Shown piece by piece: positions 4,340-20,012 of a stretch of DNA of 64,000 nt (position 1 is the first letter of the stretch; every line of letters starts with the position of its first letter). Origin of the DNA: Gluconacetobacter johannae. GTDB taxonomy: Bacteria > Pseudomonadota > Alphaproteobacteria > Acetobacterales > Acetobacteraceae. Below the pieces are notes generated by a model. That model saw only the letters and a program-made list of their open reading frames with translations, ran no database searches and was not told the DNA's origin. The translations under genes were made by a program, and so were the position numbers. Where the stretch lies: NCBI RefSeq assembly GCF_014174305.1, contig NZ_JABEQH010000001.1:124001-188000 (forward strand), in the 5' to 3' direction.

Positions 4340-5740
4340 ATGGCGTATGATTTCGACCTGTTCGTGATCGGAGCGGGTTCCGGCGGTGTGCGCTGTGCGC
4401 GGATCGCCGCCGGGCACGGGGCACGGGTGGCCGTGGCCGAAAGCCGGCACTGGGGTGGAACCTGCGTCAATCTGGGCTGCGTACCCAAGAAGCTGATGGT
4501 CCAGGCCGGCGAGTACGGCGATCTGGCGGAGGACAGCCATGGTTTCGGCTGGGACACGGCGCGGGGCCATCACGACTGGGCGGCCCTGATCGCCGCCAAG
4601 GACCGCGAGATCGCGCGGCTGAACGGCATCTATGTCTCGATGCTGGAGAAGACGGGCGTCACGCTGTTTACCGGCGCCGCGCGGTTCGAGGACGCGCATA
4701 CGCTGCTGATCGGGCCGGGGCCGCTGGACCTCGAGGCGCCGGTTCGCCGCGTGACGGCCGAACGGATCGTGATCGCCACCGGTTCGACCCCCGACCTGCC
4801 GGACATCGAGGGAATCGGATATGCGATTTCCTCGGACCAGGCGTTCCACCTGGAAACCCGGCCGCAGCATGTCTGCATCGTGGGCGGCGGCTATATCGGC
4901 ATCGAGTTCTCGGGCATCTTCCAGGGGCTGGGGTCGTCGGTCGATCTGGTCTACCGGCAGGACCTGCCGCTGCGCGGCTTCGACCAGGACATGCGCGCGG
5001 GCCTGCGCGACGCCATCGAGGCCCGGGGCATCCGCCAGCATGCCGGACGCTCCCCCACGGCAATCGCCCCCCGGCCCGAGGGTGGCTATGTGGTCCATCT
5101 GGATGATGGCGGGCGGATCGGGGCCGATTGCGTGTTCTTCGCTACCGGCCGCCGGCCCAAGATCGACGGGCTGGGGCTGGAACATACCGCCGTCCGCACC
5201 ACCAGCGGCGGGCGGATCGTCGTCGATGCGACCGGCGAGACGGATGCGCCCGGCATCTACGCCATCGGCGACGTCACCAACCGCGACAATCTGACGCCGG
5301 TCGCGATTGCCGAGGGCCATACCCTGGCCGACCGTCTGTTCGGGACCGGCCATCCGCGTGACTGGTCGCTGGCGACGACGCCGAAGGCCGTGTTCTTCTC
5401 TCCGCCCCTGGCCACCGTGGGCCTGACGGAAGAAGAGGCGGCCCGTGACGGGGCGGTGGATATCTACCTCGCGCGGTTCACGCCGATGCGCCATACGCTC
5501 AGCGGCCGGACGCGGCGGACGGTCATGAAGCTGGTGGTCGATCAGCACAGCCAGAAGGTGGTGGGCGCGCACATGCTGGGCGACGACGCGCCGGAAATGA
5601 TGCAGGGGCTGGCCATCGCCGTGACCGCCGGCCTGTCCAAGCACGATTTCGACCGGACCGTGGGCATCCATCCGACCTCGGCCGAGGAATTCGTGACAAT
5701 GCGGACCCGCACCCGCGTCACCGAACGACAGACCGACTGA
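4340..5740 (+). CDS. gor: Glutathione-disulfide reductase
   Basis: A 466-residue FAD-dependent disulfide reductase that regenerates glutathione with NADPH. The N terminus has the dinucleotide-binding GAGSGG. The redox-active disulfide is in GGTCVNLGCVPKK. The second Rossmann motif is GGGYIGIEF, and the C-terminal interface motif HPTSAEE carries the catalytic histidine. The VNLGCVPKK form separates it from dihydrolipoyl dehydrogenase and fits glutathione reductase; trypanothione or mycothione reductase is unlikely in this lineage. The ATG at 4340 is preferred over an upstream in-frame start at 4256, which would overlap fpr and add 28 unconserved residues. A hairpin follows the stop. Confidence 0.94.
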   Translation: MAYDFDLFVIGAGSGGVRCARIAAGHGARVAVAESRHWGGTCVNLGCVPKKLMVQAGEYGDLAEDSHGFGWDTARGHHDWAALIAAKDREIARLNGIYVSMLEKTGVTLFTGAARFEDAHTLLIGPGPLDLEAPVRRVTAERIVIATGSTPDLPDIEGIGYAISSDQAFHLETRPQHVCIVGGGYIGIEFSGIFQGLGSSVDLVYRQDLPLRGFDQDMRAGLRDAIEARGIRQHAGRSPTAIAPRPEGGYVVHLDDGGRIGADCVFFATGRRPKIDGLGLEHTAVRTTSGGRIVVDATGETDAPGIYAIGDVTNRDNLTPVAIAEGHTLADRLFGTGHPRDWSLATTPKAVFFSPPLATVGLTEEEAARDGAVDIYLARFTPMRHTLSGRTRRTVMKLVVDQHSQKVVGAHMLGDDAPEMMQGLAIAVTAGLSKHDFDRTVGIHPTSAEEFVTMRTRTRVTERQTD

Positions 5741-5747
5741 ATTCTCT

Positions 5748-5773
5748 GCGACCGGGCGGCGCCGCCCGGTCGC
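5748..5773. terminator. Perfect palindromic hairpin between convergent genes
   Basis: Positions 5748-5760 (GCGACCGGGCGGC) are exactly reverse-complementary to 5761-5773. The hairpin lies between gor (+) and the small secreted-protein gene (-). Neither side has a T-run, so termination may not be intrinsic. Its position between convergent stops suggests a bidirectional end signal. Confidence 0.5.
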
Positions 5774-5785
5774 TAGTTGGCGTCG

Positions 5786-6160
5786 TCAGTGCGGCGTGAC
5801 CCAGCCGTTGCCGGTGGCGTCGCCAAGCTGGCCCTGGCCGTAGGGGCCGCTGCTCTGATACGCGCTGCCGAAGCGCGAGAGGTCGCTGCCGGTGACGGCG
5901 TCGCGATGCACGTTGGCCTCGTGGTCCGGGTCCGGCCCGTGATTCAGTTCCATCGACGGTGCGTCCTGGTAGCCGGGCGGCAGGCTACGGCGTCCCTTGA
6001 CCGTCATCTGGTCGCCGCTGCGGGCCTCGACGCCTTCCTCATGACCGGATGAAGACGTCTGGGGGGTCGACTCGTCCGCCGGCGCCGCCATGGCGGAGGC
6101 GCCGACCAGGCAGAGGCCGGCCACCACTGTCACCAGGCCTGTGCGAAGCATGGCCATCAT
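5786..6160 (-). CDS. Small secreted/periplasmic protein of unknown function
   Basis: A 124-residue protein I do not recognise. Residues 1-27 form a clear Sec signal peptide: MMAMLRT, a hydrophobic LVTVVAGLCLVGA core, and a cleavage-type SAMA/AP site. The mature part (about 97 residues) is polar, with no cysteines and no membrane segment. It is rich in Asp, Ser, Gly, Pro and His, so it is probably disordered or small periplasmic. The start at 6160 is supported by AGAAGGA six bases upstream. An in-frame ORF runs further upstream, but those residues are not protein-like. It is monocistronic and divergent from aroF, and separated from gor by a perfect hairpin. Confidence 0.72.
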   Translation of the reverse strand: MMAMLRTGLVTVVAGLCLVGASAMAAPADESTPQTSSSGHEEGVEARSGDQMTVKGRRSLPPGYQDAPSMELNHGPDPDHEANVHRDAVTGSDLSRFGSAYQSSGPYGQGQLGDATGNGWVTPH

Positions 6161-6485
6161 GCGTAATCCTTCTGTTCGCTCTGCATCCAGCATGTCATGC
6201 GCGGGGTGCCGCGTTAAGGCACCGTGACGCACGTCGTCCATGCACCATATGGGAGATATGTCGGCGATCCCGCGAAAATGCGAGGTGGAAGACGCGCTTC
6301 GGCGCCATTCGCGCGGCACGGCAGCCATTCGCGCATGATCCCTTTGCGTCGGGTAGGGTTTTTCGACATAAAGACTGCCCCCTGTATGAAAGTCCGGCCG
6401 ACGGGGCGCGGGCAAGGGGGAAAATGGCGGCTGACGGCGGACAGGATGCCGCGGCCGGATAGCCAGAGGAAATTAGGATCCGACC
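6161..6485. other. Divergent intergenic region upstream of aroF
   Basis: A 325-bp gap between the divergent starts of the secreted-protein gene and aroF. It contains one plausible aroF promoter (6362-6390) and the aroF ribosome binding site. ORFs crossing it look like shadows, and no RNA gene was recognised. Confidence 0.5.
6362..6390 (+). promoter_or_regulatory. Candidate sigma-70 promoter for aroF
   Basis: A TTCGAC -35 hexamer (6362-6367) is separated by 17 bp from a TATGAA -10 hexamer (6385-6390), in an AT-richer patch about 95 bp before the aroF ATG. The match and spacing are good for a GC-rich genome, but this is by eye only. Confidence 0.35.
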
Positions 6486-7901
6486 ATGAGTGCGATGCAC
6501 ACACACGACAGTTCTTCCCGGCAGGCCTGGACGCCGGAGAGCTGGCGGTCGTTTCCCATCCGACAGGTGCCGGAATATCCCGACGCGGCGGCGCTGCACG
6601 CGGTCGAGGAGCGGCTGCGCCGCTATCCGCCCCTGGTCTTCGCGGGCGAGGCCCGGCGGCTGAAGGCCAATCTGGCGCTGGCGGCCAAGGGGAAGGCGTT
6701 CGTCCTGCAAGGCGGGGCATGCGCCGAAAGCTTCGGTGAATTCACCGCCGACATCGTCCGCGACACCTTCCGCGTGCTGCTGCAGATGGCGGTGGTGCTG
6801 ACGTTCGGCGCGAAGGTCCCGGTCGTGAAGATCGGCCGCATGGCCGGCCAGTACGCCAAGCCCCGCTCGTCGGACATGGAGACCGTCGGGGGCGTCACCC
6901 TGCCGTCCTACCGGGGCGACATCGTCAATGGCCCGGACTTCACCGCGGCGGCCCGGATCCCCGATCCGGCGCGCATGGAAACCGGCTATTTCCAGTCGGC
7001 CGGGGTGATGAACCTGCTGCGCGCCTTCGCCGGCGGCGGCTACGCCAACCTGCACCAGGTCCATCGCTGGAACCTCGGCTTCGTCGAGCGTTCGCCGCTG
7101 GCCAAGCAGTACGGCGTCCTGGCCGAACGGATCGACGAGACGCTGGCCTTCATGGCGGCCTGCGGCCTGACCGGCGCCACGACGCGCCAGATGGACGAGA
7201 CCGAATTCTACACCTCGCACGAGGCGCTGCTGCTGCCGTACGAGCAGGCGCTGACCCGCATCGATTCGACGTCGGGCGAATGGTACGACTGCTCGGCCCA
7301 TTTCGTGTGGATCGGCGATCGCACCCGCCAGCCGGACGGCGCGCATGTCGAATTCCTGCGCGGCGTACGCAACCCGATCGGCATCAAGGTCGGCCCCTCC
7401 ACCACGATCGCGGACCTGGAGCGCCTGCTGGACATCCTCAATCCGCAGGACGAGGCCGGCCGGATCTCGCTGATCTCGCGCATGGGGGCCGAGGGGGTGC
7501 AGAAGCACCTGCCGCCGCTGCTGCGGCAGGTGATGGCGTCCGGGCGGACGGTCACGTGGTTGTGCGATCCGATGCACGGCAACACGATTTCGACCGTCAA
7601 CAAGATCAAGACCCGGTCGTTCGAGGCCATTCTGTCCGAGATTCGCGGGTTTTTCGATGTGTTCGAGGCCGAGGGCGCGTTCCCCGGCGGCGTGCATGTC
7701 GAGATGACCGGGCAGAACGTCACCGAGTGCGTGGGGGGGGCCCACCGCTTGACGGAAGCCGATCTTGGTGAGCGCTATGAAACCTTCTGCGACCCCCGCC
7801 TGAATGCGGAGCAATCGCTGGAAATGGCATTCCTGCTGGCCGAGGAGCTGACGGCGCGCCTGCGCGGCACGCCGGCGACGGGGGGCATGGAGGCCGCATA
7901 A
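6486..7901 (+). CDS. aroF: 3-deoxy-7-phosphoheptulonate (DAHP) synthase, class II
   Basis: A 471-residue plant-type (class II) DAHP synthase. It condenses phosphoenolpyruvate with erythrose 4-phosphate at the entry to the shikimate pathway. Visible family motifs are QGGACAESF (metal-binding Cys), [11 protein letters not shown] (substrate-binding region), CDPMHGNT and the C-terminal [12 protein letters not shown]. Length matches the roughly 450-470 residues usual for the class, which is unrelated in sequence to E. coli AroFGH. Feedback regulation cannot be read from the sequence. The ATG follows a GAGGAAATTAGGA purine-rich stretch. pncB follows 17 bp downstream and is probably cotranscribed. 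The next steps of the pathway (aroK-aroB fusion) are at 31.9 kb. Confidence 0.95.
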
Positions 7902-7918
7902 AAATCCACGGAGGAACG

Positions 7919-9130
7919 ATGTCCGCAGCAGATACCGGTACGGGCTGGCCCGCCGCAGGCGCCTTCGGGCCGGCCCAGGCCCTGGATGACGGGACGATCC
8001 GCGCGCGGACTGACGCCTATTTCAACCGGACGCGGGACATCGTGACCCGCTTCGGCGACCGGCAGGTGACCTACGCCCTGTTCATCCGCCGTCCGGTCAT
8101 CTCCGCCCCCCGGCTGATGACCGAATGGCTGGACGGCGTGGCCCGCGCCCGCGGGGTCGTGCTGTCCTACGACATCATGTTCCCCGAAGGCGCCTGGGTC
8201 GGCGCGGGCGAGCCGCTGGTCTACATCACCGGCTCGTTCGTCGCCCTGGCGGATCTGGAAACGCTGCTGTTGCAGAAGCTGGGTCCGCCCTGCGTCGCCG
8301 CGCTCAATGCCTACCAGATGGCGATGGCGCTGCCGGGCGCGCGGTTCATGGCGATGGAGGCCCGTCATTGCGCGGGCTTCGAGATGCAGGAACAGATGGC
8401 CTATGCCGCCGCGGTGGGCAGCCGGGCGGCGCAGCGCGAGGGCGCGCTGGGCTTCATCGGCGGCGCCAACGACGCGACGGCGGGTTTTTTCGGCGACGGA
8501 CGGGGCCTGGGCACCATGCCGCACGCCCTGGTCGGCTATGCCGGTTCCACCCTGCGCGCGGCCGAGATGTTCCATTCGACCTATCCCGAGGCCGACCTTG
8601 TGGTGCTGGTCGATTATTTCGGGCGGGAAATCACCGATGCGCTGGAGGTCTGCCGGGCCTTTCCGGACCTGGCCGCCGCCGGGCGCATCGGCGTGCGGCT
8701 GGACACGCATGGCGGGCGCTTCCTGGAAGGGCTGGACCCGCAGTTGTCCTACGCGGCGCTGGAGCGCAATACGCCCGGCACCATCCGCCGCTATCGCTCG
8801 GAGACCGAACTGCGCCACCTGGTGGGCACGGGCGTGTCGGCCGCCGCCATCTGGCGCATGCGCGAGGCGCTGGACGAGGGCGGCTTCCCCAAGGTACGCA
8901 TCATCGTCTCGTCCGGCTTCAGCGTGGAAAAATGCCTGGCCATGGCCGATGCCCACGCGCCGATCGACCTGGTCGGGACGGGGTCGTTCATCCCCGACCG
9001 CTGGTCCGAGACCTATGCCACCGCCGATATCGTGTCCTACGACGGCGACGCGCGGGTGAAGGTCGGGCGCGAATTTCTGCTGCGTAAGGCGCGCGACCGG
9101 GCGGTTCCGGCGCGCAACAGCGCATCGTGA
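7919..9130 (+). CDS. pncB: Nicotinate phosphoribosyltransferase-type enzyme
   Basis: A 403-residue member of the nicotinate phosphoribosyltransferase family. The family makes nicotinate mononucleotide from nicotinate and PRPP in NAD salvage. Seen in the sequence are the N-terminal DAYFNRTRDIV segment, the VTYALFIRR region, the central HAGFE-like and GGANDAT motifs, and the C-terminal SSGFS and VGTGSFIP phosphate-binding loops. The length is at the low end for the family, and the N-terminal block differs from E. coli PncB, so it belongs to the diverged NAPRTase branch. A strong GGAGGAACG site precedes the ATG. It lies between aroF and an acidic orphan, on the same strand with short gaps. Confidence 0.85.
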   Translation: MSAADTGTGWPAAGAFGPAQALDDGTIRARTDAYFNRTRDIVTRFGDRQVTYALFIRRPVISAPRLMTEWLDGVARARGVVLSYDIMFPEGAWVGAGEPLVYITGSFVALADLETLLLQKLGPPCVAALNAYQMAMALPGARFMAMEARHCAGFEMQEQMAYAAAVGSRAAQREGALGFIGGANDATAGFFGDGRGLGTMPHALVGYAGSTLRAAEMFHSTYPEADLVVLVDYFGREITDALEVCRAFPDLAAAGRIGVRLDTHGGRFLEGLDPQLSYAALERNTPGTIRRYRSETELRHLVGTGVSAAAIWRMREALDEGGFPKVRIIVSSGFSVEKCLAMADAHAPIDLVGTGSFIPDRWSETYATADIVSYDGDARVKVGREFLLRKARDRAVPARNSAS

Positions 9131-9152
9131 CACGGAAACGGAAGGTCTGCCT

Positions 9153-9521
9153 TTGACGGAATCCCTTTTTGCGCCCGAGGGCGGCTGGCGGGTCAGGATC
9201 CTGGACCTGTCCGGCGGGGCCGAGGACAATATCGTCGAGGAAGTCGGCGGCTTCCCCGACCTGATCCATGCCAACGCCTTCGCCCGCGCCTATGTGCGCG
9301 ACAGCGTCGAACGCTGCCGCGTGCCCGGTGCGTCGCCGCGCGACGTGCTGTCGGCCTGGTTCGCCTTCGGCGAGGATGCCGAGGTGCTCGAATCCGGGGA
9401 AAACGGCTGGCGTTCGGCGAACGAACTGGACGATTTCACCGCCCATGCGGCATCGGAGATGGAACGCGACTGGCGCGCGCTCGACCCCCGCCGCGATCAG
9501 GACGACGAGCCGGAGGAATAG
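9153..9521 (+). CDS. Acidic conserved-looking hypothetical protein
   Basis: A 122-residue, strongly acidic, soluble protein I do not recognise. It starts with TTG at 9153, preceded by a GGAAGG ribosome binding site; no in-frame ATG lies near. There is no signal peptide or membrane segment. The N-terminal half (WRVRILDLSGG, HANAFARAYVRDSVERCR) looks folded alpha/beta. The last 20 residues are almost all charged (RRDQDDEPEE). It lies 22 bp after pncB and 59 bp before gltX, on the same strand. Being inside a run of housekeeping genes suggests an ordinary cytoplasmic function, but none can be assigned. Confidence 0.7.
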   Translation: MTESLFAPEGGWRVRILDLSGGAEDNIVEEVGGFPDLIHANAFARAYVRDSVERCRVPGASPRDVLSAWFAFGEDAEVLESGENGWRSANELDDFTAHAASEMERDWRALDPRRDQDDEPEE

Positions 9522-9580
9522 TCCCGCGCCGCGTCGCGCATGGCTGGTCTTTCGGCCGGCGCCGACGCATATAAGGCGGC

Positions 9581-10912
9581 ATGAAACTCCGTTTTGCGCC
9601 CAGCCCGACGGGCCTGATCCATGTTGGCAATGCCCGGCAGGCCATTGCCAACGCCCTGTTCGCCCGCCGCCACGGCGGGACCTTCCTGCTGCGTATCGAC
9701 GATACCGACCGCGACCGCTCGCGCGAGGAGTATGTCGAGGCCCTGCGTACCGACCTGGCGTGGCTGGGACTCGACTGGGACGAATACGTCCGGCAATCCG
9801 ACCGGCTGGACCGCTACGCGCTGGCGATCGAACGGCTGAAGGCCTCGGGCCGGCTGTATCCGTGTTTCGAGAGCGAGCAGGAACTGGCCGCCAAGCGCGA
9901 GGCCCGGATTCGCATGCGTAAGCCCCCGATCTATGACCGGGCGATGCTGCGCATGACGCCGGAACAGCGCGCGCAGGCCGAGGCGAACGGCAAGGTGCCG
10001 TACTGGCGCTTCCGCCTGTCGGACAGCATCGTGGCGTGGAACGACCTGGTGATGGGGCGCTCGCAGGTCAAGCTGACGGCGATCTCGGACCCGGTTCTGG
10101 TGCGGGCCGACGGCACGGTGCTGTACACGCTGGCGTCGGTTGTCGACGATATCGAAACCGGCATCACCCATGTGGTGCGCGGCGAGGACCATGTGACCAA
10201 TACCGGGGTGCAGATCGACATCGCCCAGGCGCTGGGGGCGCGGCCCGACCGCTTCGCGTTCGCGCATCTGCCGCTGTTGCTGGACGAGGGCGGGGGCAAG
10301 CTGTCGAAGCGGTTCGACGGGCTGTCGATCCGCGCCCTGCGCCAGGACGGGATCGAGCCCGAGGCCGTGGTGTCCTACCTGGCGCGGCTGGGCAGCGCGG
10401 ACGACCCGGCGCCGCTGTCGATGGACGAACTGGCCGCCGGCTACGACCTGGGGCGGGTGTCGCGGTCGGCGGCGCGGTTCGACATGCGCCAGCTTCTGGC
10501 GCTGAACCGCAGGATCATGCACCAGACGCCCTTCGAGGCCGTGCGCGCCCGCCTGCCCGAGGGCGCGACCGAGGCCTTCTGGCTGGCCGTCAGGGGCAAT
10601 GTCGACATGGTCTCGGAACTGCGCCACTGGTGGGACGTCGTCGCGGGCACGATCGTGCCCCCGGTTCTGGACGACGAGGGGGAGTATCTGCTGCGGGCCC
10701 TGGCGCTGCTGCCGGACGAGCCGTGGGACGCGCAGACCTGGAAGGGCTGGACGACGGCCCTGCGCGAAGCCACGGGCCGGACCGGCAAGGCGGTCTTCCA
10801 CCCGCTGCGCGTGGCCCTGACCGGCGAGGAAAAGGGGCCGGAGATGCGCGACCTGCTTCCCCTGATGGGCCGTGCGCGCGTGGCCGCGCGCCTGCGGATC
10901 GCCGCGCGATGA
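9581..10912 (+). CDS. gltX: Glutamyl-tRNA synthetase
   Basis: A 443-residue class I aminoacyl-tRNA synthetase that charges tRNA-Glu, and often tRNA-Gln in alphaproteobacteria. The HIGH-type motif is PTGLIHVGNARQ near residue 10, and the KMSKS-type motif is KLSKRFDG around residue 240. RIDDTDRDRS is a second family signature. The usual four-ligand zinc site of E. coli GluRS is not complete (only CFES is seen). Alphaproteobacteria often carry two gltX paralogues with different tRNA specificity, so this may be one of two; that is inference. Its stop overlaps the start of arsC as ATGA. Confidence 0.95.
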   Translation: MKLRFAPSPTGLIHVGNARQAIANALFARRHGGTFLLRIDDTDRDRSREEYVEALRTDLAWLGLDWDEYVRQSDRLDRYALAIERLKASGRLYPCFESEQELAAKREARIRMRKPPIYDRAMLRMTPEQRAQAEANGKVPYWRFRLSDSIVAWNDLVMGRSQVKLTAISDPVLVRADGTVLYTLASVVDDIETGITHVVRGEDHVTNTGVQIDIAQALGARPDRFAFAHLPLLLDEGGGKLSKRFDGLSIRALRQDGIEPEAVVSYLARLGSADDPAPLSMDELAAGYDLGRVSRSAARFDMRQLLALNRRIMHQTPFEAVRARLPEGATEAFWLAVRGNVDMVSELRHWWDVVAGTIVPPVLDDEGEYLLRALALLPDEPWDAQTWKGWTTALREATGRTGKAVFHPLRVALTGEEKGPEMRDLLPLMGRARVAARLRIAAR

Positions 10913-11259
10913 GCGACGTGACGATCTGGCACAATCCGCGCTGCGGCACCTCGCGCAAGGTGCTCGACCTGCTGCGCGCCGAGGGGATCGAGCCTGCGAT
11001 CGTCTTCTATCTCCAGACGCCGCCGGACCGGGCCACGTTGGCCGGCGTGATCGCGCGGGCCGGGCTTTCGGTCCGCGAGGCGATCCGCACCAAGGAGGCC
11101 GCCTATCGCGAACGGGGGCTGGGCGATCCGGCGCTGGACGATGCGGCAGTGCTGGATGCGATGCTGGCCGATCCGGTCCTGATCGAACGGCCGTTCGTGA
11201 CGACCCCGCGCGGGGCACGGCTGTGCCGCCCGGCGGAGCGGGTGCGCGAGATCCTCTGA
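10909..11259 (+). CDS. arsC: ArsC-family (glutaredoxin-linked) arsenate reductase
   Basis: A 116-residue thioredoxin-fold protein of the ArsC/Spx family. The nucleophile is Cys12 in HNPRCGTSRK. All three arginines that bind arsenate in the classical enzyme are at the same numbering: R60, R94 (LIERPF) and R107 (LCRPAE). This supports a true glutathione/glutaredoxin-dependent arsenate reductase rather than a Spx-like regulator or YfgD-type relative. The ATG overlaps the gltX stop (ATGA), so translation is coupled. No arsB, acr3 or arsR is nearby, so it does not form an arsenic operon here. Confidence 0.88.
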   Translation: MSDVTIWHNPRCGTSRKVLDLLRAEGIEPAIVFYLQTPPDRATLAGVIARAGLSVREAIRTKEAAYRERGLGDPALDDAAVLDAMLADPVLIERPFVTTPRGARLCRPAERVREIL

Positions 11260-11335
11260 CGCTCGGGCGGCGCGCCGGCGGGGTTCGTTATTTCGTTGTT
11301 TCCCGATGTGGCGCTGTGCTCATATCGAGCGTGCA

Positions 11336-12589
11336 ATGGGGCGCAAGCGGGCAAAGGCAGTGCGGCAATCCTATCATTTCGTCGTCCTGCCGATCGGCAC
11401 GCTGGGCGACTTTCTTCCGGCCGCCGGACTGGCCCGGGAACTGGCGGCGCGAGGACACGATGTCGACCTGATGGCCCAGGCGGCCTTCGCGTCGCATGCG
11501 CCGGGTGGGGGCGTCCGCTTCCGGACGTTCGGCCGGCAGGACGAGTACGAACGCGATATCGCCAATGTGCGCGTCCTGGACCGGCAACAGCCGGTTCTTT
11601 ACGAATCCCTGATCGCGCCGACCATCCTGCCGCATCGCCAGGCGGTCGAAACCGCCGTCCGGACGGGAATGAAGCCGGTCGTCGTGCTGTCGGCGGTGCA
11701 TGCGGTGGGCGCGCTATGGGCCGCCCGGTGCCTGGGCGCGCAGGCGATCGGCATGGTGACCACGCCGCCCTACATGGTCGGATACCAGACCCCCAACCCC
11801 GTGGCGGATTCGGTCATGCGCGCGGCGTTCCGCGGCTGCGGCCTGCCGGATCTGCCGCCGCCCGTCCATGACGGCGCGCGGCTGTTCTGGGGCGATTTCA
11901 TCATGACCTACGACGCCTTCCTGGAATTGTTTCCCGCATGGCTGGAAACCGTTCCGATGCGGCGTGACGCGCGGCATATCCAGGGCACGTTTCCTGGTGG
12001 CAGCAGCGATACCGCCGTTCCGGAAATCGAGGCGTTCGCGCTGGATGGGCCGGCGCCATGGATCTTCTTCCCCGGGTCGTCGGGCATGCTCAATGTCGTC
12101 TGCCGCGATTTTCGCAGCGTGGTTGCCGAATACGCGCGCCTTTCGGGCCGGCGCTGCATCCTGATCGACCGGACGCTGGACGTGCCGTTCCAGTCGATGG
12201 CGGACAATCTGGTGGCCACCCCCTGCACGGACATGAACCGCCTGCTGCCGCTGGCGCGCGGCGTCCTGCACCATGGCGGGATCGGCATCATGTCGCAGTC
12301 CCTGGCCGCCGGCCTGCCGCAGGTCGTCGTGCCCGTGGGGTTCGACCAGCCGGCGAATGCCCAGTGGCTGGAGGACAGGGGCGTGGCCGTCACGACCATG
12401 CCGGCGGCGCTGTCCGCGTCGCATCTGCTCGACCTGGTGGCCGAAGCCGAAGCCCTGGCGCCAGGACCGGCGCGCGACCTGGCCCGGCGCCTGAAGCGCG
12501 AGGGCGGAACGGGCGGCCTGGCCGAGATGCTGCTGGACCGCCTGGACGGGCATGTGCCCGCGTCCGGACTGGTACGGAGCGTGGCGTGA
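11336..12589 (+). CDS. GT1-type (UGT/MGT-like) glycosyltransferase
   Basis: A 417-residue GT-B-fold glycosyltransferase resembling RhlB/macrolide-type family 1 enzymes. The N-terminal acceptor domain starts VVLPIGTLGDFLPAAGLARELAARG. The C-terminal nucleotide-sugar motif is HHGGIGIMSQSLAAGLP, followed by VGFDQPANAQWLEDRG, typical for NDP-sugar binding. The family transfers sugars to small lipophilic acceptors; sugar and acceptor cannot be told here. An in-frame ATG at 11306 is an alternative start, and neither start has a clear ribosome binding site. Its stop overlaps the GTG of the next gene (GTGA), so the condensation-type acyltransferase is translationally coupled. The pair looks like a two-gene unit for an acylated glycoside. 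Confidence 0.82.
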   Translation: MGRKRAKAVRQSYHFVVLPIGTLGDFLPAAGLARELAARGHDVDLMAQAAFASHAPGGGVRFRTFGRQDEYERDIANVRVLDRQQPVLYESLIAPTILPHRQAVETAVRTGMKPVVVLSAVHAVGALWAARCLGAQAIGMVTTPPYMVGYQTPNPVADSVMRAAFRGCGLPDLPPPVHDGARLFWGDFIMTYDAFLELFPAWLETVPMRRDARHIQGTFPGGSSDTAVPEIEAFALDGPAPWIFFPGSSGMLNVVCRDFRSVVAEYARLSGRRCILIDRTLDVPFQSMADNLVATPCTDMNRLLPLARGVLHHGGIGIMSQSLAAGLPQVVVPVGFDQPANAQWLEDRGVAVTTMPAALSASHLLDLVAEAEALAPGPARDLARRLKREGGTGGLAEMLLDRLDGHVPASGLVRSVA

Positions 12590-13884
12590 CCGGGGCGGGT
12601 GCGCTTGTTCCGTCCCATGCCGGACAATTGCCGCTGACCATGCGGGACCGGGCCCTGCTGCCGCGATTCTATACCCGCTTCGGCCCCTCGGGATCGACGT
12701 CGCACACCAACCTGGTCTACGGCACCGTGATCCGGGGCGAGGTCGATGTGGACGCCCTGCGGTCCGCCGTCGGCCGGGTGGTCGAGGCCAACCCCGAATT
12801 GCGGGCCTTCTATTCCGGCCCGGACCAGGACCCGGCGAAATATTGCGCGTCGCCCGACGTGCCCTTCCATTTCGAGGATTGTCGCGCCGACGGAGCCGCG
12901 TTCAAGGCGGCGGTGCGCGCGGCGATCGCCTATCCGTTCAGCCTGACGGACTACCCGCTGATCCGCGTGACGCTGGTGCGCCGCGCGCCCGCGCGCTTCG
13001 TCTTCATCCTGTGCGCGCATCACCTGGCGGTCGATGGATGGTCGATCGTGATGTTCCTGCGGGCGATTTCCCGGCTGTACAAGTCGGACGGTCCGGCATC
13101 GCGGCCCGCTGTCAACGTGCCGGACTATCTGCGGGACCGTCAGGCCTACCTGGACTCCGACGCCGCCGCCGCCGATACCGCCCGGGCGCTGGCCTGGCTG
13201 ACCCCGGCGATCCCGGCCCTGCGTCCGACGCAGCCGACGCTGTTTCCGTCGCCCGAGGAAGTCCATCGCCTGGTCCGCCTGGACCGGCAGGCGGTCCGGC
13301 AGGCCTGCCAGGTGCTGGGCCTGAGCGTGACCGAGGTGCATCGCGTCCTGTTCGTGCTGGTCCAGCATGCGCTGACCGGACTGGACGAACTGGGCTTCAG
13401 CGAGTCGCATCCCAACCGGCCGCCAGAAGGGCTGGGCCTGTATGGCTTCCTGTCCGACGACCATCTGGTCCGCGTGACCATCCGGCCCGGCGACACCGTG
13501 CGGGATCTGGTCAATGCCGTGAACCGGGGGCTGGATCATGCCCGGGAGTACGAGGGTCTGCCGGCGGCGACCTTGCTGCGGCGGCTGTATGACGGGCCGC
13601 CGCTGCCGCGATTCCATTTCAACCCGTTCGGGGTCGGCGCGAACGCGCTGCGCCTGGGCGGCCTGTCCATCCGCCATTTCAAGACGATGAAAGCCTTCGC
13701 GCTGACGGACCTGACCTTCGTGTCCCTGAACGCGGATTTCGCCTTCATCGCCATGGCGCGGCCCGAGGTCGACGGCTTCGACATCGACGCGGTGGCCGCC
13801 TGTGTACGGCGGGCGCTGGCGCTGTTGGCCGATCCCACGCGCCCGCTGTCCCACGGGTGGCTACGTTCAGGCTGGGCGGCCTGA
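12586..13884 (+). CDS. Stand-alone condensation-domain acyltransferase (PapA/NRPS C-domain-like)
   Basis: A 432-residue protein of the condensation/chloramphenicol-acetyltransferase-like fold. The catalytic HHLAVDG motif (HHxxxDG) is at residues 145-151. The N-terminal half has the expected substrate-domain features (VYGTVIRGEVDVDALR, EANPELRAFY). Length equals a single condensation domain, and no adenylation or carrier domain is attached or nearby. Relatives include polyketide-associated PapA acyltransferases and stand-alone C domains that esterify alcohols or amines with acyl-CoA or carrier-bound acyl groups. The GTG start at 12586 overlaps the glycosyltransferase stop (GTGA). Acylation of the glycosyltransferase's product is the natural inference. 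The gene ends 8 bp from the convergent trmJ. Confidence 0.82.
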   Translation: MTGAGALVPSHAGQLPLTMRDRALLPRFYTRFGPSGSTSHTNLVYGTVIRGEVDVDALRSAVGRVVEANPELRAFYSGPDQDPAKYCASPDVPFHFEDCRADGAAFKAAVRAAIAYPFSLTDYPLIRVTLVRRAPARFVFILCAHHLAVDGWSIVMFLRAISRLYKSDGPASRPAVNVPDYLRDRQAYLDSDAAAADTARALAWLTPAIPALRPTQPTLFPSPEEVHRLVRLDRQAVRQACQVLGLSVTEVHRVLFVLVQHALTGLDELGFSESHPNRPPEGLGLYGFLSDDHLVRVTIRPGDTVRDLVNAVNRGLDHAREYEGLPAATLLRRLYDGPPLPRFHFNPFGVGANALRLGGLSIRHFKTMKAFALTDLTFVSLNADFAFIAMARPEVDGFDIDAVAACVRRALALLADPTRPLSHGWLRSGWAA

Positions 13885-13891
13885 CCGCGCT

Positions 13892-14674
13892 TTATCCCTT
13901 CGACTGGCGGGATCTGCGTCCGCGCGCCAGTTCGGTGACTACGCCGTGCAGGGTACGCAGTTCCTGCTCGGTCACCTCGCCACGGGTGAAGAAGTGGCGC
14001 AGGTTGCGGACCATGCCGGCGCGTTTCTGTTCATTACGCAGGAAACCGCACTCATCCAGATCGTCGATCAGATGGCGCATGAAATTGTCCAGCTCGCCCT
14101 TGGTGGCCACATGGGTTTCGTTGGTCATCAGCGTGCGGGGCGGGGTGGCGTCGGCGGCCATCCACCATTCATAGGCCATAATCATGACCGCCTGCGCCAG
14201 GTTCAGCGACATGAAGGCGGGATTGAGCGGATAGCGGATCAACGCGTCCGCCCGCGCCATGTCCTCATTGTCCAGGCCGGCCCGCTCGGGGCCGAACAGC
14301 AGGCCGGTCCGCAATCCACGCAGGCTGGCCTGCCGCAGTTCGGCGGCGCCGCCCCGTGCGGTCAGCACGGTCTTGACGATGTGGCGGGGACGCGGGCAGG
14401 TGGCAAGGACATGGTGCAGGTCGGCGATGGCGTCATCCACGCTGTCGTGCACCGTGGCGGCCTCGAGGATGCGGTCGGCGCCCGATGCCGAACGCCAGGC
14501 CCGCTCCTGCGGCCATCCGTCGCGCGGAGCCACCAGGCGCAGGTGGAACAGGCCGCCATTGGCCATCGCGCGCGCCGTGGTGCCGATATTCTCGGCCATC
14601 TGCGGGCGGACCAGGATGACGACCGGGCTGTTGCCGATGGGCGCGATGTCGGCGCCGCCGTCACGGCCGGTCAT
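13892..14674 (-). CDS. trmJ: TrmJ-type tRNA/rRNA 2'-O-methyltransferase (SpoU/TrmH superfamily)
   Basis: A 260-residue SPOUT methyltransferase. The SAM-binding knot motifs are seen: VRPQMAENIGTTARAMAN near the N terminus, FGPERAGLDNEDMARAD in the middle, then NLAQAVMIMAYEW. This order fits TrmJ (2'-O-methylation of tRNA position 32) or a close LasT-like relative. The last 90 residues form a helical C-terminal extension (DFMRHLIDDLDECGF-type), also seen in TrmJ. The start at 14674 overlaps the cysS stop as ATGA, so the two are translationally coupled. Target position is inferred from the family. Confidence 0.88.
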   Translation of the reverse strand: MTGRDGGADIAPIGNSPVVILVRPQMAENIGTTARAMANGGLFHLRLVAPRDGWPQERAWRSASGADRILEAATVHDSVDDAIADLHHVLATCPRPRHIVKTVLTARGGAAELRQASLRGLRTGLLFGPERAGLDNEDMARADALIRYPLNPAFMSLNLAQAVMIMAYEWWMAADATPPRTLMTNETHVATKGELDNFMRHLIDDLDECGFLRNEQKRAGMVRNLRHFFTRGEVTEQELRTLHGVVTELARGRRSRQSKG

Positions 14675-16032
14675 GCGCGCCTCCAGCTTGTGCCCGTCGG
14701 GCCGTCTTCCAGTATGATGCCCCGGTCCGCCAGTTCGGCGCGGATGGCGTCCGCGCGGGCGAAGTCGCGGGCCTTGCGGGCCGCCAGCCGGTCGGCGATC
14801 AGCGCGTCGATGGCGGCGGCATCGACGTCCGCGCCGGCGCGGAACCATGCGTCCGGTGTCTGCTGCAGCAGGCCGATCATCCGGCCCGCCGCGCGCAGTC
14901 CGGTGGCGGCCTCGGCGTCACCGGCCAGCGCGCGGTCGGCCAGCGCATGCATTTCGGCCAGCGCGCGGGGGGTGTTCAAATCGTCGCACAGGGCCGCCAG
15001 GACGGGTTCCGGCACCGCGCCTTCGGCATCGGCCGGGGCGTCGCCCAGCGCGCGATAGAACCGGTCCAGCGTCTGTTTCGCCTCCGTCAGCCCGGCCCGT
15101 GTGAAATTCAGGACCGAGCGGTACTGGGCGTGCAGCAGCAGCAGGCGCAGCGCCTCGGCCGGCGTGTCGCGCAGCACGTCGCGGACGGTCAGGAAATTGC
15201 CCAGCGACTTGGACATCTTTTCCCCGTCCACCAGCAGCATGGCGTTATGCACCCAGTGGTTGGCGAAGCGTCCGTTTGGAAAGCAGCATCGGCTCTGCGC
15301 CAGTTCGTTCTCGTGATGCGGGAACAGCAGGTCGGACCCGCCGCCGTGGATGTCGAAACTCTCGCCCAGATAGCGGTGCGACATCGCCGAGCATTCGATA
15401 TGCCAGCCGGGGCGGCCGCGTCCCCACGGGCTTTCCCAGCCGGGCAGGCCGGGTTCCGAGGGCTTCCACAGCACGAAATCACCGGCATCGCGCTTGTAGG
15501 GGGCGACTTCGACGCGGGCGCCGGCCAGCAGGTCGTCCGGGCTGCGGCCCGACAGCGCGCCGTAGGCGGCGAAGCTTGCGACCGCGAACAGCACATGGCC
15601 CTGGGCCTCGTAGGCGTGGCCGCCGGCGATCAGGCGCGCGATCATGTCCAGCATTTCGCCGATATGGTGCGTGGCGCGAGGCTCGACATCGGGGGGCAAT
15701 ATCCCGACGGCGGCCAGGTCTTCGTGAAAATCGCGGATGGTGCGCGCGGTCAGGGCGTCGATCGGCTCGCCGTTCTCGCGGGCGCGGGCGTTGATCTTGT
15801 CATCGACGTCGGTGATGTTACGCACGTAGGTCACGCGCGGATACAGGTGGCGCAGCACCCGCACCAGGACGTCGGCCGTCACCATGGCCCGCAAATTGCC
15901 GATATGCGCCAGGTCGTAGACCGTCGGCCCGCAGAAATACACCCGCACATTCCCCGGATCGAGGGGGACGAACGGAACGATCTTGCGGCTTCTGCTGTCA
16001 TGCAGGCTCAGGTGCGGCATCGTATCGGACAT
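14671..16032 (-). CDS. cysS: Cysteinyl-tRNA synthetase
   Basis: A 453-residue class I synthetase that charges tRNA-Cys. The HIGH motif is in GPTVYDLAHIGNLRA, with the zinc-binding Cys in VYFCGPT. The KMSKS motif appears exactly (GEKMSKSLGNF). The domain order and length match CysS. The ATG at 16032 (MSDTMPHL) is preferred over an upstream in-frame ATG at 16149, which would add 39 low-complexity residues. It is first in a two-gene minus-strand unit with trmJ and is divergent from the MATE exporter gene. Confidence 0.97.
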   Translation of the reverse strand: MSDTMPHLSLHDSRSRKIVPFVPLDPGNVRVYFCGPTVYDLAHIGNLRAMVTADVLVRVLRHLYPRVTYVRNITDVDDKINARARENGEPIDALTARTIRDFHEDLAAVGILPPDVEPRATHHIGEMLDMIARLIAGGHAYEAQGHVLFAVASFAAYGALSGRSPDDLLAGARVEVAPYKRDAGDFVLWKPSEPGLPGWESPWGRGRPGWHIECSAMSHRYLGESFDIHGGGSDLLFPHHENELAQSRCCFPNGRFANHWVHNAMLLVDGEKMSKSLGNFLTVRDVLRDTPAEALRLLLLHAQYRSVLNFTRAGLTEAKQTLDRFYRALGDAPADAEGAVPEPVLAALCDDLNTPRALAEMHALADRALAGDAEAATGLRAAGRMIGLLQQTPDAWFRAGADVDAAAIDALIADRLAARKARDFARADAIRAELADRGIILEDGPTGTSWRRA

Positions 16033-16178
16033 GATGGCGCCTAGATGCGACACCGGCGGGGCGGACGCAACACCCTTGTTCGCGCGGGGCGGCGCGACGC
16101 GCGGAATGGGGGCCTTTCCGGCCCATGCGCGGACCCCTCGTCTGGTCATCCGGTGCCCGATCTGCTTTGGATGCCCGC

Positions 16179-17576
16179 ATGCTTGTTCCGCTCTCCCCCC
16201 CGTCCGAAATCCGCCTGCTGCTGCGTATCGCCGGGCCGGTCGCCCTGGCGCAGATCGCCCAGATGGTCATGGGGGTGACCGACAGCGTTCTGCTGGGGGG
16301 CCTGGGCGCCGACGCGCTGGCGGTCGGCGGCCTGTCCACCACCTTGTTCTTCACCGTCCTCGCCGTGCTCCAGGCGATGCTGGGCGCGGGCGGCGTGCTG
16401 ATCGCCCAGGCGGTCGGGCGGGGCGACATGGAGGATATCGCGCCCATCCATACGATGCTGCTGGTGCTGGCGCTTCTGCTGTGTGTGCCTTGCCTGTTCA
16501 TCCTGGTCCAGGCCGGGCCGTTGCTGCGCCTGATGCACGAACCGGGCTCGGTCGTCGGGCCGGTCACGGCGTTCGTGCACATCCTGATGTGGGGGGTGCC
16601 CCCGGCGCTGCTGGGGACCGGTGTCGTCAATGTCGTGCTGCCGGCGATCGACGCGCAGGGCATCCTGCTGCGGGTCATGCCGGTCGTCGCCCTGGCGAAC
16701 GGCCTGCTGAACGCCGCGCTGATCCATGGCCTGTGGGGGCTGCCGCGCCTGGGGCTGACAGGTTCGGCGCTGGCGACGGTCCTGACGATGTGGGGGGCGG
16801 CGCTGGTGCTGCTGGGCATCGTGCATGGGCGGCCGCATCTGCGCGGCATGCTGTGGCCATGGCGCCTCCGGCCGGGGACGATGCGGCTTCTGCTGCGTCT
16901 CGGCCTGCCGATGATGGCGGCGGCGGGGGCCGAAATGATGCTGTTCGAGATCACGAGCCTGCAGGCCGCCCTGTTCGGCACCCATGCCCTGGCGGCCCAT
17001 CAGGTCATACTGAGCGTGACGTCCATGACCTACATGGCGACCATGGCGCTGGGGCAGGCGGCCAATGTCCGCGTCGCCTTCTGGACCGGCGCGGGCCAGT
17101 CGGCGCCGGCGCGGCATGCGGCGCGGGTGGCGGTCGGGACCGGCATGCTGGTGATGGGCACGGTGGGCTGCCTGATCTACCTGTTTCGTGCCCGGATCGT
17201 GGGTTTCTACCTGGACCCGGCCGCCGCCGCCAACCACGAGAGCATCGAAATCGCGATGACCGGCCTGCTGGTGGCGGCGATCCTGCAGGTGGCCGACGGA
17301 ACGCAGGCGGTGCTGGGCGGCGTGCTGCGCGGGCGGGGGGACGCCGTGGTGCCGATGGTGCTGGCGATCGCCGGCTACTGGGGGGTGGGTTTTCCCCTGG
17401 GGTGGTGGCTGGCGTTCCATGGGGCGATGGGCGTCACCGGATTATGGAGCGGCATCGCCGTCGCCCTGGTCGCGGTGTCGCTGATGCTGGGGGGACGGGC
17501 GCTATGGTCGCTGGGCGATCGCTGGACGGGCGTCGGGGGGGCCGTTACGCCCGACGCGCCGGCATCTGGGCCATGA
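16179..17576 (+). CDS. MATE family efflux transporter (DinF/NorM type)
   Basis: A 465-residue polytopic inner-membrane protein with about 12 hydrophobic segments in two similar halves, typical of MATE Na+ or H+ antiporters. Characteristic pieces are the N-terminal RLLLRIAGPVALAQIAQMV, GLGADALAVGGLS, and AAHQVILSVTSMTYM at the start of the second half. MATE proteins export organic cations, drugs or lipid-linked compounds; the substrate is unknown here. The start at 16179 fits the family's short N terminus; an in-frame ATG at 16125 is possible. Its 3' end overlaps the convergent sulfotransferase gene by 32 bp. Proximity to the glycosyltransferase/acyltransferase pair makes a role in exporting that product possible but unproven. 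Confidence 0.9.
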   Translation: MLVPLSPPSEIRLLLRIAGPVALAQIAQMVMGVTDSVLLGGLGADALAVGGLSTTLFFTVLAVLQAMLGAGGVLIAQAVGRGDMEDIAPIHTMLLVLALLLCVPCLFILVQAGPLLRLMHEPGSVVGPVTAFVHILMWGVPPALLGTGVVNVVLPAIDAQGILLRVMPVVALANGLLNAALIHGLWGLPRLGLTGSALATVLTMWGAALVLLGIVHGRPHLRGMLWPWRLRPGTMRLLLRLGLPMMAAAGAEMMLFEITSLQAALFGTHALAAHQVILSVTSMTYMATMALGQAANVRVAFWTGAGQSAPARHAARVAVGTGMLVMGTVGCLIYLFRARIVGFYLDPAAAANHESIEIAMTGLLVAAILQVADGTQAVLGGVLRGRGDAVVPMVLAIAGYWGVGFPLGWWLAFHGAMGVTGLWSGIAVALVAVSLMLGGRALWSLGDRWTGVGGAVTPDAPASGP

Positions 17577-18291
17577 GGTCGTAATCGCACCGGTACAGGG
17601 CGCGGATACGTCGCTCCTGCTCCTGGGTCGGGTTCTGCCGCTGCCGGGGGCCTGCGTTCAGGAAAGGGAAGTGAACGTCCTCCAGGCCCGGTATGATGCG
17701 GGCCACCTGCCCGAGATCGTGCAGCGATATCAGGTGATCGACCGCGACGCGGCCGTTCCGGTCGGTGACGTACCAGGATTGCGGACGAAAGAAATGGTCC
17801 ATCTGGTAAGGGCTTCGTGCCCGTTCGACATGGGTCAGCGCATCGTCCAGCGATTTGAAGCCCATATACAGCGCCCGGAACGGGGCGGCGACCAGCCGGT
17901 GCGCTCCGCCGCCGTATCGGGCGAAGGTGAAGGCCGAGACGAAACGGTCCACCGGGTCGCGCAGGATCGCGAAACTGGGCAGGACGCGGGCCAGATCCGG
18001 CGCCGCGTGCAGGTAGGACCGCATGCTCTCGTGCCGCAATTCGCGCCCGTACAACGCGACCGAGACCGAGGTGCCGGCGTTCTTCGGCACATGGATGAAC
18101 AGGACGCCCCGCCGGCGGATCGTATCCAGCCGCCCCCTGCGTTTGGCGCCCGCCGGCAGGCGGACGCCCAGATCGACGGCGCGTTCGTGCAGGTCGCCGG
18201 CCAGGCGCAGGCCCAGCGGTCGCACCAGCCGTTCGGCCAACCCGTGGGTTGAACGATCGCGCGATATGTAATGTGACTGGACAACATCCAT
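17545..18291 (-). CDS. Sulfotransferase family protein
   Basis: A 248-residue PAPS-dependent sulfotransferase-like protein. The 5'-phosphosulfate-binding loop is FIHVPKNAGTSVS. The 3'-phosphate-binding motif is ILRDPVDRFVSAFTFARYG, with the conserved Arg and Ser. This arrangement fits the carbohydrate/chondroitin-type (Sulfotransfer_2) group rather than cytosolic aryl sulfotransferases. There is no signal peptide or membrane segment. The start at 18291 (MDVVQSHY) has a G-rich ribosome binding site; an upstream in-frame ATG at 18369 is less likely. An unusually AT-rich stretch (about 18383-18400) lies upstream and may hold its promoter. It overlaps the MATE gene tail to tail. The acceptor is unknown. 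Confidence 0.8.
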   Translation of the reverse strand: MDVVQSHYISRDRSTHGLAERLVRPLGLRLAGDLHERAVDLGVRLPAGAKRRGRLDTIRRRGVLFIHVPKNAGTSVSVALYGRELRHESMRSYLHAAPDLARVLPSFAILRDPVDRFVSAFTFARYGGGAHRLVAAPFRALYMGFKSLDDALTHVERARSPYQMDHFFRPQSWYVTDRNGRVAVDHLISLHDLGQVARIIPGLEDVHFPFLNAGPRQRQNPTQEQERRIRALYRCDYDLMAQMPARRA

Positions 18292-18440
18292 GTTCGGGGT
18301 CCCCCGCAGGGCGCCAGCGCGCCGGTACCGGGACACCCTTACGACCGGCGTGCGGGGTGGAACAGCCACCCGGAGACCACCGAAATTCTATATTACCAGA
18401 TGCTTACAGTTCGTTACCCGACCCCGGACGATCCGAGGCC

Positions 18441-20012
18441 TTATCGCGTCTCGACGCCGATCTGCTTGATGTCGTGGAAGGCCAGGTCGGGGTTCATCTC
18501 GGTCGTCCGGCGCATCATGAACGCCGAGCTGGCCAGCAGGACCGGATCGCCGTCGATGTCGTCGGCCATGGCCGAGCGGTTGGCGGCGGCGAAAAGTTCC
18601 AGCTTCGTCCGGTCGCCGGTGACCCAGCGGGCCAGGGAGTAGGGGGTCGATTCGAAACCGATCGCAACGCCATATTCGCCGCCCAGCCGCGCCTGAAGCA
18701 CGTCCAACTGCAGGGTGCCGACCACGCCCACGATCGGCGGCGCGCCGTCCTGCGGGCGAAACAGCTGCACCACGCCTTCCTCGGCCAGTTCGGTCAGGGC
18801 CTGCCGCAGCTTCTTGGCCTTCATCGCGTCATCCAGGCGGACGCGGCGCAGGATTTCCGGCGCGAAATACGGCACCCCGGTAAAGCGCAGGTCCTCGCCC
18901 TCGGTCAGGGTGTCGCCGATACGCAGCGTGCCATGGTTGGGAATGCCGACCACGTCGCCGGCAAAGGCTTCCTCGGCCAACTGCCGGTCGCGGGCGAAGA
19001 AGAACTGCGGGGTATGCAGGGCGAACTGCTTGCCGATACGCACATGCTTCAGCCGCATCCCACGCTCCAGCCGGCCCGAGCAGATGCGCGCGAAGGCCAT
19101 GCGGTCGCGATGGTTGGGGTCCATGTTGGCCTGGATCTTGAAGACCAGCGCCGTCAGGCCGGTTTCGTCGGCGCGCACGACGCGGCTTTCGGTCGCCTGG
19201 TCGCGGGGCGGCGGCCCGAAGGCCACCAGCGCGTCCAGCAGGTCGGTCACGCCGATTTCCTTCATCGCGCTGCCGAAGAAGACGGGGGTCAGGTGCCCGG
19301 CATTGAAGCTGTCACGGTCGAATTCCGGCAGGGCGGCCTCGACCAGTTCCAGATCCTCGCCCAGTTGGACCATGCGCGGGTCGGATTGTTCCAGCGGCGC
19401 GGGAACATGCAGACTGCGCGAGCGCAGGTCGTAGGTGCCGACGAAATTGGCCGCCCGGCCGACCGGCCATGTCGCCGGCGCGGTGTCCAGAGCCAGCGCC
19501 GAGGAAATCTCGTCCAGCAGGGTAAAGGGGTCCTGCGCCTCGCGGTCCATCTTGTTGATGAAGGTGACGATGGGAATGTCACGCAGGCGGCAGATCTCGA
19601 ACAGCTTGCGCGTCCGGTCCTCGATCCCCTTGGCGGCGTCGATGACCATGACCGCCGAATCGACCGCCGTCAGGGTGCGGTAGGTATCTTCCGAGAAATC
19701 CTCGTGGCCCGGCGTGTCCAGCAGGTTGAAGATGCAGCCGCCGTATTCGAACGTCATCACCGAGGTCACGACCGAAATGCCGCGATCGCGTTCGATGCCC
19801 ATCCAGTCCGACCGGGTGCGGCGGCGTTCGCCCTTGGCGCGGACATTGCCCGCAAGCTGGATGGCGCCGCCCGCGCGCAGGATGCGTTCGGTCAGCGTCG
19901 TCTTGCCCGCGTCGGGATGCGAGATGATGGCGAACGTCCGCCGCCGGGCGATCTCCCGGGAGATGGTGGCGGCGAGGGCGGTGGCGGGCTCGGCGTTCAC
20001 GGGCAGGTCCAT
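18441..20012 (-). CDS. prfC: Peptide chain release factor 3
   Basis: A 523-residue translational GTPase that recycles RF1/RF2 after termination. The G1 motif is SHPDAGKTTLTERIL, G3 is DTPGHEDFSEDTYRTL and G4 is NKMD. The EF-G-like domains II and III follow at the expected distance, and length equals that of E. coli RF3 (about 529). It stands alone. A MITE-like element lies 28 bp upstream of its start, between it and rpsD, so the element may affect its promoter. Confidence 0.96.
   Translation of the reverse strand: MDLPVNAEPATALAATISREIARRRTFAIISHPDAGKTTLTERILRAGGAIQLAGNVRAKGERRRTRSDWMGIERDRGISVVTSVMTFEYGGCIFNLLDTPGHEDFSEDTYRTLTAVDSAVMVIDAAKGIEDRTRKLFEICRLRDIPIVTFINKMDREAQDPFTLLDEISSALALDTAPATWPVGRAANFVGTYDLRSRSLHVPAPLEQSDPRMVQLGEDLELVEAALPEFDRDSFNAGHLTPVFFGSAMKEIGVTDLLDALVAFGPPPRDQATESRVVRADETGLTALVFKIQANMDPNHRDRMAFARICSGRLERGMRLKHVRIGKQFALHTPQFFFARDRQLAEEAFAGDVVGIPNHGTLRIGDTLTEGEDLRFTGVPYFAPEILRRVRLDDAMKAKKLRQALTELAEEGVVQLFRPQDGAPPIVGVVGTLQLDVLQARLGGEYGVAIGFESTPYSLARWVTGDRTKLELFAAANRSAMADDIDGDPVLLASSAFMMRRTTEMNPDLAFHDIKQIGVETR

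Follow-up and report, generated by a model that had tools for sequence, protein, structure and literature searches.

An overlapping pair of genes for a glycosyltransferase and a free-standing condensation-domain protein in a Gluconacetobacter cargo hot spot: a candidate acylated-glycolipid module

A 64,000-nucleotide stretch of the Gluconacetobacter johannae genome (the window) carries a glycosyltransferase gene that overlaps, by the four bases GTGA, the gene of a single free-standing condensation-domain protein. As our best explanation we tentatively propose that the pair constitutes a two-enzyme tailoring module that may produce an acylated glycolipid and that resides in a clade-specific cargo island. 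Both enzymes are of known kinds; their combination looks new and the pairing unusual. Titles and abstract openings in the open-licence PMC literature, among the matches listed, described no pair of a glycosyltransferase and a free-standing condensation domain. No such pair was described in the excerpted part of an antiSMASH gene-cluster survey of the Acetobacteraceae, which adds that antiSMASH may in general miss new pathways (PMC8776678).

The gene pair and its genomic setting

The glycosyltransferase gene (11336..12589, + strand) encodes a 417-residue GT-B enzyme of the EryCIII-like/MGT superfamily that is distantly RhlB-like, at about 27%, and the second gene (12586..13884, +) has a GTG start and encodes a 432-residue condensation-domain acyltransferase-like protein, referred to here as the C protein. 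The stop of the former and the start of the latter share the GTGA at 12586..12589 (+), an overlap also present in the orthologous loci of G. tumulisoli and G. azotocaptans, and this arrangement suggests translational coupling of the two genes. The G. tumulisoli C gene has an alternative in-frame ATG 12 bases upstream of the GTG, which was the start chosen by the ORF script. Both glycosyltransferase orthologs share the ATG start and residues 1-19 with the window protein, and residue 20 differs in one of them. Both frames retain 90-94% protein identity to the G. tumulisoli and G. azotocaptans orthologs, and their conservation in two species together with dN/dS values of 0.11-0.22 indicates real genes rather than chance ORFs. 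The initial annotation had described a glycosyltransferase overlapping a single condensation domain by GTGA, and had noted that adenylation, carrier and ketosynthase domains were missing nearby. Pfam bears out both assignments, with EryCIII-like_C at 46.6 bits against a cut-off of 31.7 for the glycosyltransferase and Condensation (PF00668) at 73.1 bits against 30.6, over residues 39-333, for the C protein. The second statement agrees with the Pfam content of ten neighbouring genes (4340-20012), eight of which have families, none of them adenylation, carrier or ketosynthase, and two of which have no family; genes farther away were read by eye. The same Pfam search and a reading of the neighbourhood by eye revealed no exporter or acceptor-making gene beside the pair. 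A few kb away, a MatE gene (16179-17576) adjoins a sulfotransferase-family gene (17545-18240, -; Sulfotransfer_2, 28.0 against 22 bits). A promoter scan returned no site against 0.4 expected, and five terminator-like sites were found against 2.1 expected (sd 1.5), all of them within genes.

The pair lies between a gltX-type tRNA synthetase gene (class I E/Q catalytic domain; 9581..10912, +) and a trmJ-like SpoU-family methylase gene (13892..14674, -), which is convergent with the C gene, seven bases separating the two stops. Between gltX and the pair, an ArsC-family gene (PF03960; 10909..11259, +) overlaps the gltX stop by four bases. While gltX and trmJ were each matched in all 14 Gluconacetobacter genomes, the interval they border (10912-13892 in the window; loci L084-L094 elsewhere) varies in content. 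With ORFs called by a codon-usage script (at least 60 aa, score at least 15), the interval holds arsC and the pair in three genomes, a MatE gene in three, type I-E cas genes in two (Cas3 and Cse1 in both), an ArgC-like semialdehyde-dehydrogenase gene in two (one with an extra 117-aa ORF), an Acyl_transf_3 gene in one and a 295-aa ORF that matched no Pfam family in one; in the last two genomes no ORF was called, and the borders lie roughly 0.4 and 0.2 kb apart. Across the genus the space between gltX and trmJ is a hot spot for cargo, and as such a place to look for other accessory genes. The initial annotation had placed an island between core gltX-arsC and trmJ. Its core borders stand for gltX and trmJ, but arsC is itself variable cargo, since in the other 11 of the 14 genomes the alignment ends at or just past the end of gltX and the interval yielded no called ORF resembling ArsC. 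The ArsC gene (10909-11259) was seen there only in the three pair-bearing genomes, with dN/dS of 0.17-0.35. No tRNA that could serve as an integration site was found within the window, and no transposase was noticed among the searched part of the ORFs called in the interval. A defence role was considered and rejected, as the glycosyltransferase, the C protein and ArsC gave no PADLOC match at E up to 0.01.

The adjacent pair occurs in three of the 14 Gluconacetobacter genomes, namely those of the window, G. azotocaptans and G. tumulisoli, which are closely related acetic acid bacteria. Among 60 relatives the C protein matched nine genomes and the glycosyltransferase 11, with the same three orthologs in each case. 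Wider searches with the C protein matched 22 of 397 family genomes (E<=1e-8), 22 of 398 phylum genomes (E<=1e-14) and two of 385 class genomes (E<=1e-17); among the matches listed, the first contained the same three orthologs and the other two only that of the own genome. The glycosyltransferase matched 12 of 398 genomes, again with the own genome as the one ortholog among the matches listed. These family, phylum and class sets are samples of larger groups that overlap in genomes, and because at most four candidates were scored per genome, an ortholog that has diverged could escape where NRPS genes are numerous. The non-orthologous matches to the C protein are 23-36% identical segments, mostly within long frames of NRPS size (not each annotated), with a few in short frames or at contig ends. 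Among the plasmid records that matched the C protein (149) or the glycosyltransferase (16), none showed an identity of 60% or more. A pattern scan of named genomes gave 108 matches, with Gluconacetobacter tumulisoli LMG 27802 and G. azotocaptans LMG 21311 as the two relatives; because two 7-residue patterns were used, such a scan reveals close relatives only. Adjacency among homologues, which the initial annotation had named as a check on the pair, was upheld in part. The orthologs are adjacent, with the GTGA overlap, in every one of the three carriers, but carriers make up just three of the 14 genomes, and a C-domain profile found no condensation domain in any of 15 neighbourhoods of distant glycosyltransferase relatives. 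These neighbourhoods came from 11 genomes other than the own genome in the 398-genome search and from four of the 16 plasmid records; one of them (L114) ends at a contig end directly before the glycosyltransferase, and the profile does detect C domains in the loci from which it was derived. The coupling of the two genes is real, yet seen in a single clade and not a feature of the glycosyltransferase family as a whole.

The pair is maintained by selection, with dN/dS (NG86; window/azotocaptans, window/tumulisoli and azotocaptans/tumulisoli, respectively) of 0.185, 0.157 and 0.219 for the glycosyltransferase gene and 0.111, 0.165 and 0.193 for the C gene. The corresponding values are 0.349, 0.303 and 0.169 for arsC, 0.064, 0.104 and 0.094 for gltX and 0.029, 0.014 and 0.032 for trmJ, and the pair is under weaker constraint than the core genes gltX and trmJ. 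Since the dS of the pair (0.18-0.34) falls among the values of its neighbours (0.16-0.42) and its GC content (about 69.5%) is near that of the window (68.3%), the pair most likely dates back to the ancestor shared by the three species and has been retained.

Separately from the pair, a Linocin_M18 encapsulin match is absent only from the window genome among the 14 genus genomes, while G. tumulisoli and a second genome (G010) have two matches each. Excerpts of the family survey report linocin RiPP clusters in all Gluconacetobacter strains but G. johannae LMG 21312, with two each in G. tumulisoli and G. dulcium (PMC8776678), and the missing match in the window genome fits the former statement.

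The glycosyltransferase and its relatives

The glycosyltransferase contains a GTLGD loop (D25), HHGGIG at residues 312-317 and FDQ at residues 336-338. In a 16-row alignment the GxxGD loop was aligned in 14 rows, the other two having poor N-termini, and HHGG was present in 14, replaced by QHGG or HQGG in the remaining rows; these motifs are common to other GT-B families and are therefore not diagnostic of the RhlB type. Identity to all 13 non-orthologs in this alignment was 21-28%. Among the glycosyltransferases compared, the closest non-ortholog by phmmer (95.7 bits) is encoded on a Burkholderia glumae plasmid (NZ_CP100139.1, locus L073), in an operon of an alpha/beta hydrolase, the glycosyltransferase, an MFS exporter and a GT2 enzyme scoring above the NCBIfam cut-off for rhamnosyltransferases (220.9 against 200.55 bits). 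We take this to be the rhlA-rhlB-rhlC layout, the hydrolase presumably being RhlA by its position. Other relatives have an alpha/beta hydrolase and an MFS-like transporter (by eye) nearby (L119), a P450 nearby (Polaromonas), or a neighbour annotated as an alpha/beta hydrolase that reached no Pfam cut-off (Methylorubrum), and no lipid-related partner was evident beside those of L116, L117 and L118. One further locus (L115:4053-10335) groups an RhlB-like glycosyltransferase gene with an MFS gene and a gene for a P450-reductase fusion, and its gene content fits a possible hydroxy-fatty-acid glycoside pathway.

Several of the nearest relatives thus occur in lipid-glycoside-like operons, and for this reason an acylated glycoside or glycolipid is the class of product to prefer. 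The initial annotation had suggested such a product, and the suggestion is supported in part, as the leading class, with the product itself still conjectural. We hold the acylated glycolipid to be the leading product class with moderate confidence.

A quite unlikely alternative is that the pair, as detoxification cargo with arsC, acts on toxic molecules, the glycosyltransferase modifying a xenobiotic of macrolide or rifamycin type and the C protein acylating toxic compounds. The NCBIfam models that match the glycosyltransferase are named for macrolide and rifamycin glycosyltransferases, arsC belongs to the same cargo, and MATE and cas genes are found among the other cargo of the hot spot. However, these scores fall far under their cut-offs (TIGR01426, 52.2 against 260 bits; NF000354, 30.5 against 800 bits), and the same models match, also below cut-off, the glycosyltransferases of the lipid-glycoside-like operons.

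The condensation-domain protein and its possible acyl donors

The C protein is the only PF00668 match in its own genome. Across the 14 genus genomes the family is confined to the three pair-bearing genomes and one other (G012), whose five matches lie in 4501-aa frames. As the sole condensation domain of a genome in which none of the ten neighbouring genes has an NRPS domain, the C protein showed no sign of NRPS membership or partnership, and since the genome lacks any other condensation domain its acyl donor is probably not an NRPS. Three PP-binding matches were found in the genome, all on contigs other than that of the pair. The first, an ACP of 79 aa, has genes for a ketoacyl synthase, a short-chain reductase and an acyl transferase next to it and belongs to a fatty-acid-synthesis locus. 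The second, an ACP of 83 aa, has a fatty acyl-AMP ligase (909.4 against 600 bits) on one side and a serine palmitoyltransferase (644.3 against 500 bits) on the other, on contig 9 (L129:2854-6303); this row of genes is probably a sphingolipid locus. The third lies within a 2362-aa type I PKS on contig 22 (L128:2788-9876), for which the best NCBIfam model (NF045894) is below cut-off and the second is sulfolipid Pks2 (906.1 bits against a cut-off of 2400).

By analogy with the mycobacterial Pks-PapA-GT glycolipid pathways, the C protein might act in trans on this PKS, as a thioesterase-less iterative type I enzyme, and esterify its reduced chain, with the glycosyltransferase glycosylating the product. 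The PP-binding match within the PKS and its sub-cut-off likeness to Pks2 are consistent with such a route. Excerpts of the family survey likewise place a type I PKS, its product not known, in all Gluconacetobacter and describe the type I PKSs of the Acetobacteraceae as having no thioesterase within or beside them (PMC8776678). The route is nevertheless decidedly unlikely, because a PKS on another contig, reported in the same excerpts from every Gluconacetobacter and from a cluster that already has two glycosyltransferases of its own (PMC8776678), contrasts with a pair found in three of 14 genomes, and because the C protein gave no PapA or WS/DGAT match in Pfam at E up to 1.

The initial annotation had also reported an intact HHxxxDG at residues 145-151, and the sequence HHLAVDG occupies exactly these positions; R278 is kept as well, and HHLAVDGWS and R278 are identical in all three orthologs. 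Comparison was made with 59 C-domain segments, each covering more than 300 profile positions, which like the C-domain profile lean towards the C protein since they were collected by similarity to it. At the 121 columns conserved at 60% or more, the C protein matches 49 and differs at 72. Kept residues include H145, H146, D150, G151, W152, S153, R278 and G287, and the columns of H145, H146, D150 and G151 are 83-100% conserved. The changed positions include D21 (Q in 97% of segments), L25 (W, 92%), A68 (R, 93%), N69 (H, 90%), D291 (N, 92%), Y322 (H, 81%) and E323 (Q, 71%), of which we take D21 to fall on the C1 glutamine, A68 and N69 on the RHE motif, D291 on FVNT and Y322 and E323 on HQD. The C protein thus retains the active site but has lost several motifs of the carrier and acceptor sides. 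Because so many conserved columns differ, several of the named motifs included, acyl transfer by the C protein is itself not certain. It is very unlikely, however, that the C protein has lost its catalytic role and serves the glycosyltransferase as a partner or by binding lipid, a reading to which the 72 altered columns point and against which stand the invariant HHLAVDGWS and R278, matching conserved columns, and the low dN/dS of the C gene (0.111-0.193). Structures of the two proteins predicted from three-row alignments had mean pLDDT of 35.6 and 35.0, too low for a usable fold.

A possible pathway and its comparison with known systems

In the acylated-glycolipid module that we favour, the glycosyltransferase would take a sugar from a nucleotide sugar and attach it to a lipid-like acceptor through a hydroxyl, with the aspartate of the GTLGD loop as the base; the same role of an aspartate is familiar from glycopeptide glycosyltransferases. 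Before or after glycosylation, the C protein would use its HHxxxDG histidine to acylate the same molecule from a thioester, at a hydroxyl (or an amine), giving the acylated glycolipid. Ester formation by free-standing C domains acting in trans is described in the excerpted text of PMC8739492. The thioester is probably a general acyl-ACP or acyl-CoA, or comes from one of two specialised carrier systems, the sphingolipid locus or the iterative PKS.

The low identity of the glycosyltransferase to its relatives and the yeast sterol 3-beta-glucosyltransferase chains that form its best PDB match (2.4e-9, 39.8 bits) weigh against a firm assignment of the acceptor class. A hopanoid or sterol-like acceptor would place the pair in the manner of acyl steryl glucosides, the glycosyltransferase glycosylating a hopanoid and the C protein acylating the sugar, and excerpts of the family survey report hopanoid genes in all Acetobacteraceae strains studied (PMC8776678). 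We judge this highly improbable, since the sterol match consists of two weak stretches (15.1 and 22.6 bits), the B. glumae operon enzyme scores far higher, and no hopanoid gene was noticed beside the pair among the ten neighbours by Pfam and the rest by eye.

Returning to the acylated-glycolipid module, a more far-reaching and unlikely version is that a C domain recruited from NRPSs replaces the RhlA-type enzyme and offloads a fatty acyl or iterative-PKS chain onto the glycoside, yielding a new acylated-glycolipid class of one Gluconacetobacter clade. If the module is confirmed, it would be a case of a condensation domain that, without any NRPS, performs the acyl transfer in a glycolipid pathway made up of two genes, a format that cluster finders based on known pathways may miss.

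Among known systems, the RhlA-RhlB operons for rhamnolipids or glucolipids, as in B. glumae, share with the pair a glycosyltransferase of the same superfamily (30.6% identity over 83%, tblastn) and an acyl-handling enzyme. Their partner, however, is an alpha/beta hydrolase, whereas no RhlA-type hydrolase stands beside the window glycosyltransferase, whose partner is the PF00668 protein; the B. glumae operon further includes an exporter and a second glycosyltransferase, and the window pair has neither. The yeast sterol 3-beta-glucosyltransferase (5xvm, 5gl5) and the glycopeptide enzyme GtfD (1rrv), matched at 2.4e-9 to 6e-8, are likewise GT-B glycosyltransferases, but their alignment to the window enzyme is restricted to short stretches or to the C-terminal half. 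PapA5-type and WS/DGAT acyltransferases, both known from glycolipid pathways, have the same fold superfamily and HHxxxDG chemistry as condensation domains, although in Pfam, at E up to 1, the C protein matches PF00668 and not the PapA or WS/DGAT families. Its weak PDB matches are 1l5a (E 0.013) and 4znm (E 0.001), which we take to be the free-standing condensation enzymes VibH and SgcC5, each a single C domain in a separate protein, as here. In NRPS or enediyne pathways VibH and SgcC5 each have a carrier protein of their own to work with, whereas the C protein is encoded in a genome that has no other C domain.
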